This document shows, in pieces, positions 21,761 to 26,392 of a DNA stretch of 64,000 bases. Numbering within the stretch: position 1 is the stretch's first letter; every line of letters starts with the position of its first letter. The translations under genes and the position numbers were made by a program. Source of the stretch: Mesobacillus subterraneus (GTDB taxonomy: Bacteria > Bacillota > Bacilli > Bacillales > Cytobacillaceae); contig NZ_CP129019.1 in NCBI RefSeq assembly GCF_020524355.2, positions 3,906,001 through 3,970,000 of the forward strand, read 5' to 3'. The notes under the pieces are model-generated. The model saw only the letters and a program-made list of their open reading frames with translations. It searched no databases and was not told the DNA's origin.

Positions 21761-21812
21761 TTCTTTCATGAAAGGGAGAAGTTATATATAGTGAGGAAAA
21801 GGAGGTTTTAAG

Positions 21813-22361
21813 ATGGACTATATTTTAGAAACAACCGATTCTGAAAAAACCATCAGTTTGGAAACAGCCATCCAGGGAAAGCCGACAATGGTCGTGTTTG
21901 TCCGCCACCTTGGCTGACCAGTGTGCCGAGCATACCTTGCGCAGTTGCGCGAGCGAATAACTGAGGTTGAAGCAACAGGCTACCAGGTCATTGCTGTCGC
22001 CCCGTCAAAAGGTTCTTTTATCAAGCAGTTTGTTGACCAGTTCGGACCTTTCCCCTTTCCTATACTCGGGGATCCTTCGAGAAAAGCATACCGCGGCATG
22101 GGTCATAAAACGATGCCAAAATGGAAGTTGCTCGCGATGGCCGGCCTCGGCTTCATTACCGGCAAAGTTAAAGACTTTATTCCGAAAAATGAAAAGCAGA
22201 AGGAATTCGTCTTGAAATCGATGAAGACACAGGATGTCTATATCCAGGGAGGAACATGGCTTTATTCAGCCCAAGGCAAACTGTTGTGGAAGCATATCGA
22301 TGAATCACCAGAGGACCACGCAAAAATCGATGACGTGTTGGAGCAAATGAAAAAACGCTGA
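21813..22361 (+). CDS. SelL-related redox protein, candidate selenoprotein with in-frame TGA
   Basis: Thioredoxin-fold, peroxiredoxin-like protein (AhpC/TSA-related, SelL-related). The ATG at 21813 follows AAAGGAGG at 7 nt. The frame runs to 22361 (182 codons) interrupted only by TGA at 21915-21917, codon 35, exactly at the first Cys of the redox motif: FVRHLG-(TGA)-PVC. Relatives read RHLGCPVC or carry selenocysteine. Both sides are undamaged coding sequence in the same frame. A 7-bp hairpin with an AGTT loop lies 25 nt after the TGA, within the range of bacterial SECIS elements. Insertion of selenocysteine would need selA/B/C/D elsewhere. The alternative is a single nonsense change or base error. 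A downstream start at Val37 would lose the motif. Confidence 0.8.
21936..21953 (+). promoter_or_regulatory. Candidate bacterial SECIS hairpin
   Basis: CTTGCGC-AGTT-GCGCGAG folds into a 7-bp stem (one G-T pair) with a 4-nt loop whose second base is G. The loop starts 25 nt after the TGA. Published bacterial SECIS models ask for 16-37 nt to the loop and a G in its first two bases, so it fits. Fold inferred by eye. Confidence 0.6.
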
Positions 22362-24354: not shown

Positions 24355-26254
24355 TTACTCACCGGCACTCAACCACATCTCCATTGCCAGCTCAAGCTCG
24401 TTATTTAATTGCTGCTTCCTGCTAAACAGCTGATCCAGTTCTTCATAAGATTTCCGGATTCCCATCACTAGATCAAGCTCGGTGATTTCTTTCTCCAGGC
24501 TTTCAATCTTTTTCAAAAGCTTTTCACCCGGGTCTGGTGAGGATAATCGCTGCACCTTTTCTGCCTTTTCCTTTAGAATCGGCATCGGCTCGACTGCTGC
24601 TCTCTCCCTTTTATAATCATCGTAATTCCCTTCATAGCTCTTCAGCCCACAATTCTCAACCGCAATCACGCGCTCCCCGATTTTATTGATAAAATAACGG
24701 TCATGAGAAATGAAGAAAATTGTGCCTTTAAAGTCGGCAAGCGCTGCCTCCAAGGTCTCAATGGATTCGATATCCAGATGATTTGTCGGCTCATCAAGGA
24801 TCAGCAAATTGATATCCTGGAACATCAGCATCGCCAGCTTGAGTCTGATCCGCTCCCCGCCTGACAGGAACTTCACCTTCTTAAAGACACTTTTTTTTGT
24901 AAAACATGAATTTCGCCAGGTACTCGCGCGCTTTCCCTTCCACAATTGAGATATCTTCACGGAAACACTCAAGCACCGTCAGCTCTTCATTATTAAATTC
25001 AATCTTCTGAGGCAAATAGGCGGCCATCACATTCGCACCCAACTCGACCACGCCTGAATCCGGCTGTTCTTCACCTAAAAGCATCTTCAGGAATGTCGTT
25101 TTGCCGCTGCCATTCGGACCAACAAGGCCGACGCGCTCACCGTAATGAACCATCAAATCAGCGCCATCAAAAATCAACTGGTCTTCATAACGCTTAGAAA
25201 CACCAACTGCCTTGATCGTTTCATTCCCTGATCTCATCGTATCGTTAAAATGAAGCCTCATATTCCGCCGCTCGAAAATCGGTTTATCAATACGGTCCAG
25301 CTTATCGAGCTTCTTCTGAATGCTCGCTGCACGCCTGAAAAATTTGTTATTATCCGCCCGCAACGCCCAGTCCCGCAGGCTCGTCACCTGCTTCTCCATA
25401 TTGTTGACCTTTTTCTGTTGCTCACGGAACTGCTCATATTGTACCCGCATATTCTCTTCCTTTTGACTGATAAAAGAAGAATAATTCCCCCTGTAGCTAA
25501 TCGTTTCCATATCCTCGATCTCGACGATTTTATTGACGACATTATCAAGGAAATAGCGGTCATGCGAGACAATCAGCACGATTCCTTTATAATTTTTCAA
25601 AAAGCCTTCCAGCCATTCAATCGACTCCATATCCAGGTGGTTCGTCGGCTCATCGAGCAGCAGGATATCCGGCTGGTGAATCAGAATCTTCCCCAATCCA
25701 ACCGTTGTTTTCTCCCCGCCGCTCAGCAAATCGAAATCCCTCTGTAAAAAGCTTTCGGTAAACTTAAGCCCGGTGCAAACCTTGCTTAGTTTCTCCTCCT
25801 GATCGTACCCGCCCTTTGCCTCGTAGAGATTTACCAGATCACTATATTTATTGAGCGCTTTTTCCAAAGCACCATCCTCTAAAACCTGCATCTGAGCCTC
25901 CATTTCACGCATCTGTTTTTCAACCTCATGAACCTCTTCAAATGCAAGATTCAGTACATCGATCACTTTCAGACCGCCCGGATAGGAAGGCATTTGTTCC
26001 AGATAGGCAAACGAAGCTCCCCGAGGACGATGGACAAGCCCTTCATCATATCCCGGACTCGAGGTTTGCGGATAGCCCGGATAATAATGCATTGGTTCGA
26101 TCCCGGCAATCACCTTGAGAACCGTGCTCTTACCACTGCCGTTCGCACCGACAATCCCCACTTTATCCCCTTCAAATGCCTCCAATGTAAAACTGTTCAC
26201 GACCAGCGTCGCTTCCATATATTTTTTGATTCCATGCACTTTCAGTTCTAACAT
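24355..26254 (-). pseudogene. ABC-F ATPase (possible ribosome-protection factor), frameshifted
   Basis: Soluble tandem-ATPase protein of the ABC-F family, about 632 residues if repaired; members act on the ribosomal E site and some give antibiotic resistance. Walker A motifs GANGSGKST and GPNGSGKTT, signature LLSGGEKTT and FLSGGERIR, and two LLLDEPTNHLD/LILDEPTNHLD Walker B boxes are present, with a charged inter-domain linker around residues 270-330. The frame breaks at a run of eight A (T run 24891-24898); seven A would join FYKKSVFKKV and restore it. ATG at 26254 preceded by AAGGA. Whether it is a resistance-type factor cannot be told from sequence alone. Confidence 0.8.
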
Positions 26255-26335
26255 ATCCATTCCTTCTTTCATCCATAATGAAGCTACGCTTTTTATGGAC
26301 AGCACAAAGAAGAACTTATTTACTATTCAATTGTA

Positions 26336-26392
26336 TAAGAAAAGCGGAAGCGCCTTGGTCAGGCCCGACAAGCGCTGGAGCTGGACAATTCC
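26336..26392. repeat. Dispersed intergenic repeat, copy D (short form)
   Basis: AAGAAAAGCGGAAGCGCCTT, then GGTCAGGCCCGACAAGCGC and a GGAGCTGGACAATT end. It lies in the leader region of the ABC-F gene. Confidence 0.8.

Follow-up and report, generated by a model that had tools for sequence, protein, structure and literature searches.

A TGA-interrupted gene in the window

The window, by which we mean the whole 64,000-nucleotide stretch of DNA analysed, lies in a genome assembled as a single contig of 4,786,507 bases and harbors a frame of 182 codons that reads M...FVRHLG-TGA-PVCR...KKR-TGA (Table 1). Its sole inner stop is the TGA at codon 35, and a ribosome site, AAAGGAGG, is located directly 5' of its ATG. 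Direct reading thus confirmed the earlier note on this DNA, which had described a frame broken only by this TGA and served by a strong ribosome site. An AGGAGG or AAGGNGG-like stretch 5' of the ATG was also observed in many of the 22 full-length copies of the gene described below. The probable terminator at the end of the gene is missing from the output of a pattern scan for promoters and terminators, which allows loops of 3-8 only and returned nothing useful.

Table 1 Features of the TGA-interrupted locus (window positions) and further genes discussed in the text (G000:C1, contig of the same genome).
Feature	Position	Strand	Remark
Probable selenoprotein gene, predicted AhpC/TSA_2 (PRXL2-like) thioredoxin-fold oxidoreductase	21813-22361	+	182 codons and stop
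TGA, codon 35, probably read as selenocysteine (U of RHLG-U-PVC)	21915-21917	+	TGA in 64/64 distinct relatives
Cys38, second residue of the U-x-x-C pair	21924-21926	+	Cys in 64/64
Shine-Dalgarno-like site AGGAGG (part of AAAAGGAGG), 5' of ATG	21801-21808	+	direct reading
SECIS-like hairpin CTTGCGC-AGTT-GCGCGAG, 7 bp, loop AGTT at 21943-21946	21936-21953	+	conserved in relatives
Probable terminator, perfect 14-bp inverted repeat AAAAAACGCTGATC / GATCAGCGTTTTTT, 11-nt loop	22350-22388	+	direct reading; overlaps the stop codon, then T's
ABC-ATPase-like gene	24358-26341	-	split over two frames
selA (L082)	G000:C1:1845480-1846866	+	two overlapping frames, 1-293 and 289-454
selD (L078/L082)	G000:C1:1843978-1844904	-	in-frame TGA in KAG-U-GCK
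Frame of 459 residues (L084:8586-9962, -)	G000:C1:2329585-2330961	-	one TGA

Coding quality had been judged intact on both sides of the TGA, and this was borne out: comparison with 14 genus relatives (14+1 sequences, against 64 for the trees) gave a dN/dS of 0.154 for codons 4-34, upstream of the TGA, and of 0.047 for codons 53-180, downstream of it. No neighbour family occurs in more than 13 of 55 loci taken with 3 kb flanks, antisense frames of the gene itself being set aside, and gene context therefore gives no function.

The TGA is conserved at codon 35

Some match to the gene was found in 33 of 61 related genomes and a full-length copy in 22, own genome included, with the TGA at the same place in all 22. 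Fifteen of the 20 other members of the genus hold the TGA-bearing gene; the remaining five, in which selA is nevertheless present, have either a remnant only (G011 and G020) or no copy (G003, G008 and G012). A second collection, of named genomes, provided 61 loci, consisting of 55 that reach the active site, all with TGA, three remnants and three distant genes with TGC or TGT. Carriers include Mesobacillus, Cytobacillus, Pseudalkalibacillus, Salipaludibacillus, Alkalicoccus and Salisediminibacterium. Order-wide, the gene is present in 52 of 299 genomes: 51 have one inner TGA, whereas the G208 copy is partial, broken and contains both TGA and TAG, and the 30 copies fetched out of the 52 all show TGA at the motif. 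In a phylum-wide search of 299 genomes, five genomes, this one among them, had a match at E <= 1e-12; two of the other four hold a gene of a different type (L192 and L193, described below), and one match (L191) contains no motif.

Codons and hairpin pairs were counted in a set of 64 distinct sequences, comprised of the 55 TGA loci (L098-L152) and nine of the 22 full-length loci, the other 13 of which were taken as duplicates, since their contigs equal in length those of loci already included; the remnants (L153-L155) and the distant Cys genes (L156-L158) were left out. Codon 35 is TGA in all 64 and never TAA or TAG, and R31, G34, P36, C38 and the Sec/Cys column are invariant. The proposal of a Sec at codon 35 within a U-x-x-C pair therefore stands, and alignment of homologues showed this stop recurring at codon 35, not random other stops. 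The earlier note had, however, taken relatives to carry Cys in RHLGCPVC, and this proved wrong for close relatives, which have TGA. Cys homologues at the codon-35 column are few and mostly distant (P0013, 54% identical, and L156, L157 and L158), P0013 being the only close one. Within the order no Cys form was met in the searches made.

A SECIS-like hairpin follows the TGA

The stem of the hairpin starts 18 nt, and its loop 25 nt, downstream of the TGA. All seven pairs form in 59 of the 64 sequences and at least six in every one, as against 36 fully paired among 22,144 control positions taken from more distal parts of these genes, and the loop, with its G early, is AGTT throughout. Stem cells are paired in 98.9% of cases over the 64 sequences, while slid controls reach at most 65.4%. 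Two of the seven stem pairs have changed on both sides, with 24 such compensatory cells in total. None of 500 shuffles reached the observed number of cells paired, of cells changed or the covariation score, and two of the 500 reached the number of pairs changed on both sides; the count of further pair types in the stem was the same as in the shuffles (500/500). RNAalifold independently finds the same stem, and in L149 a pair that is constant elsewhere has changed in both of its bases together, along with two amino acids. A kinship-corrected test of G-C/A-U exchange found three independent pairs on supported branches, which are too few for power, with 1.6 going together and 0 against.

Gln44 and Leu45, the codons of which form the loop and the stem base, are encoded by CAG TTG in 64/64, although among the Gln and Leu codons of more distal parts of these genes CAG accounts for 49% and TTG for 15%, respectively. 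No more than 1-2 of the 7 pairs form at this place in the three distant Cys genes, which hence have no hairpin. Folded as a single sequence, the window hairpin is unremarkable (z -1.34; 22 of 200 shuffles as good), and Rfam gave no SECIS match, only three sub-threshold matches unrelated to SECIS; the evidence for the hairpin is thus comparative. The SECIS-like element that had been pointed out after the TGA is accordingly upheld as a conserved stem with compensatory changes and a fixed loop, but not by the folding of one sequence.

Sec machinery of the genome and its co-occurrence with the gene

The genome contains selB (364 bits, in an open frame), selD (392 bits) and a tRNA-Sec (56 bits; anticodon TCA according to ARAGORN). 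A search for these genes had been named as a check on the selenoprotein reading and its outcome is divided, as the three are intact and selA is present, but split by one base. The split corresponds to a one-base difference from the relative L066, near SGDKLLGG, and Sec synthesis in the strain itself is therefore not certain. In 18 of the 20 other genus members selA has no inner stop, and the other two are 87%- and 66%-complete drafts. We consider a sequencing or assembly error the likely, albeit unproven, origin of the selA split. Small assembly errors are likely because the ABC-ATPase-like gene of the window is split in the same manner.

That ABC-ATPase-like gene is whole in all three relatives compared, and its split is either an assembly indel or a pseudogene.

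With selA in two frames, the gene could be a once-working selenoprotein that is now decaying in this strain, and remnants of it in other genomes (L040, L041 and L153-L155) would fit such a course. We consider this improbable: the gene itself, selB, selD and the tRNA-Sec are intact, selA is free of inner stops nearly throughout the genus, and the second split gene is what assembly errors would produce.

The remnants are found in genomes that still have selA (L040 and L041, in G011 and G020) or tRNA-Sec (L153-L155), and the gene has been lost there without loss of the Sec machinery.

Across the order selA occurs in 139 of 299 genomes, and the 52 gene carriers are all among these 139 (hypergeometric 9e-21, kinship ignored). 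Sec use is thus not rare in the order, contrary to the earlier remark that selenoproteins are uncommon in Bacillaceae. tRNA-Sec was above the cut-off in each of the 23 carrier genomes searched from among the 55 of the second collection. Only matches above the cut-off were counted, because the selB, selD and tRNA-Sec models gave below-cut-off matches in all 14 control genomes; above it, the controls showed selB in 2/14, selD in 2/14, tRNA-Sec in 5/14 and selA in 1/14.

Protein family, fold and database copies

The window protein passes the cut-off of Pfam AhpC-TSA_2 PF13911 (56.3 bits, cut-off 27) and scores 55.2 bits with PF00578, but with NCBIfam NF040769 (SelL_rel_redox), whose cut-off is 120, it reaches 95.3 bits. 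With the same model the four other U-forms scored obtained 76-99 bits, all below 120, and the close Cys form P0013 obtained 108, whereas the two distant Cys forms scored exceeded the cut-off at 129-130. The label SelL-related hence holds insofar as SelL_rel_redox is the best named model and fails at its cut-off, and the protein is better placed in AhpC-TSA_2. In the AlphaFold2 model (pLDDT 90.7) the closest solved relative by fold is human PRXL2B (prostamide/PGF synthase), whose C44/C47 align with U35/C38, and the alignment displays the PRXL2-type R-x-x-G-C-x-x-C-R redox pair with U for the first Cys. The protein is thus predicted to be a PRXL2-like AhpC/TSA_2 U-x-x-C oxidoreductase. PRXL2 (prostamide/PGF synthase-like) activity consists in the reduction of prostaglandin H2 or prostamide, which are unlikely to be the substrates in bacteria.

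Among 5.8 billion proteins we found 91 database relatives, 87 of which start after the TGA and have no active site, as had been foreseen for standard gene finders; the subfamily is therefore nearly invisible as a selenoprotein. The other four are P0013, with Cys, and the metagenome entries P0007, P0008 and P0014, with Trp that probably arose from translation of TGA by table 4 on short contigs. Cys forms of the subfamily are thus rare in databases. The annotation of the 87, and the TTG at codon 45 in 64/64, would agree with a TGA that is a true stop and a working protein that is a short form begun at GTG codon 37 or TTG codon 45. Such a protein, however, would be missing one strand from the core of the fold (E25-29 of the AlphaFold2 model) and one of the two redox residues, GTG stands at codon 37 in no more than 4/64, and codon 45 has no ribosome site in the window. 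Moreover, codons 4-34 are constrained and hold the invariant R31 and G34, and TAA and TAG never stand at codon 35, making a short form very improbable. Decoding of the TGA as an ordinary amino acid, be it tryptophan, as in the three Trp entries, or some other, is scarcely credible, given that this gene and selD both terminate at TGA or other stops in the ordinary way, that TGA also ends other genes (table 11) and that the Cys relatives have Cys at the codon-35 column.

Other TGA-bearing genes

After its TGA, selD has GACGCAAGTTTTGCGTC, a hairpin whose loop, GTT, is similar. The 459-residue frame of the same genome encodes an N-terminal AhpC/TSA domain (RGTW-U-PNC), to which an MCP signalling domain is fused (PF00015, 89 bits), and is by sequence a candidate Sec peroxiredoxin-chemoreceptor, a putative redox sensor. 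It has matches in 8 of the 299 order genomes at E <= 1e-40, the G138 copy being broken, and the TGA is located at RGTW-U-PNC in all nine stretches fetched, most of which then have CAGCTGGTCCAGCTG. Another TGA-bearing family is represented by stand-alone short Prx-like frames, RGTW-TGA-PNC, in L042 and L043 (about 175 and 160 residues). Elsewhere in the phylum, two genomes hold a different type, a Prx-like gene with RGF(I/M)-TGA-PFC (L192 and L193); here ATGCAGTTGCAT follows the TGA, with the loop AGTT as in the window hairpin.

Discussion

Comparison between genomes demonstrates the conservation of the TGA and the hairpin, compensatory changes in the stem, coding constraint on both sides of the TGA and co-occurrence with the Sec machinery, and is joined by the predicted fold. 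On these grounds we consider it very probable that the locus is a selenoprotein gene, in which the hairpin directs Sec insertion at codon 35 and the product is an AhpC/TSA_2 (PRXL2) redox protein with a U35-x-x-C38 site. For Sec insertion itself, and for the chemistry with its substrate and reductant, we infer the following course. SelB carrying Sec-tRNA would bind the hairpin that closely follows the UGA of codon 35, and selenocysteine would be inserted, yielding a 182-residue cytoplasmic thioredoxin-fold protein. Sec35 would most likely attack peroxide or another oxidised substrate and then form a selenenylsulfide with Cys38, which thioredoxin or a like reductant may reset.

The gene represents a well-supported, largely overlooked selenoprotein subfamily inside a known kind. 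It adds a widespread subfamily, public entries of which are mostly cut before the active site, to the Bacillaceae, for which few are listed; passages of a 2006 paper give three selenoprotein families for them (PMC1794560). Our literature search, which covered the main text of open papers, found no paper on the subfamily, and we do not claim its absence from print. More tentatively, and with somewhat less than even confidence, we suggest that in the largely aerobic Bacillaceae this PRXL2-type enzyme exists almost exclusively in its Sec form, that Cys seems unable to take the place of Sec within the order, and that the enzyme may help explain why these bacteria keep Sec machinery, with codons frozen around a SECIS of unchanging loop and nearly all database copies deprived of the active site.

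Among known systems, no named model fits the window protein better than NF040769, which also ranks first for each of the 30 members of an alignment, and the R-x-x-G-C/U-P-x-C site is shared. Unlike PF13911 proteins and human PRXL2B, to which identity is low (17-20%), the window protein has Sec in place of the first Cys, and its fold scores with PRXL2B and with ordinary peroxiredoxins tie within 1 Z unit. The active site of typical peroxiredoxins is Thr/Ser-x-x-Cys, whereas U35 of the window protein aligns with the Ser, and C38 with the Cys, of the thiol peroxidase 2cx3. The active site of SelL is U-x-x-U, in contrast to U-x-x-C in the window family. Eukaryotic selenoprotein L (SelL) is described in passages of an ocean-data paper as a Prx-like selenoprotein (PMC2398784). 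The Prx-like thiol:disulfide oxidoreductase selenoproteins (pfam00578, UxxC) resemble the window family in having U-x-x-C in an AhpC/TSA fold, a likeness that does not establish the same subfamily status; in a 2022 table of prokaryotic selenoprotein families, UxxC Prx-like proteins stand under pfam00578, and pfam13911 appears once, with UxxS (PMC9312934). Finally, Prx-like 1 has 225 Sec to 2,740 Cys forms in the ocean data, as passages of that paper report (PMC2398784), whereas Cys forms of the window subfamily are unusually scarce, and this scarcity opens the question of what Sec achieves and Cys does not to tests in aerobic bacilli that can be cultured.
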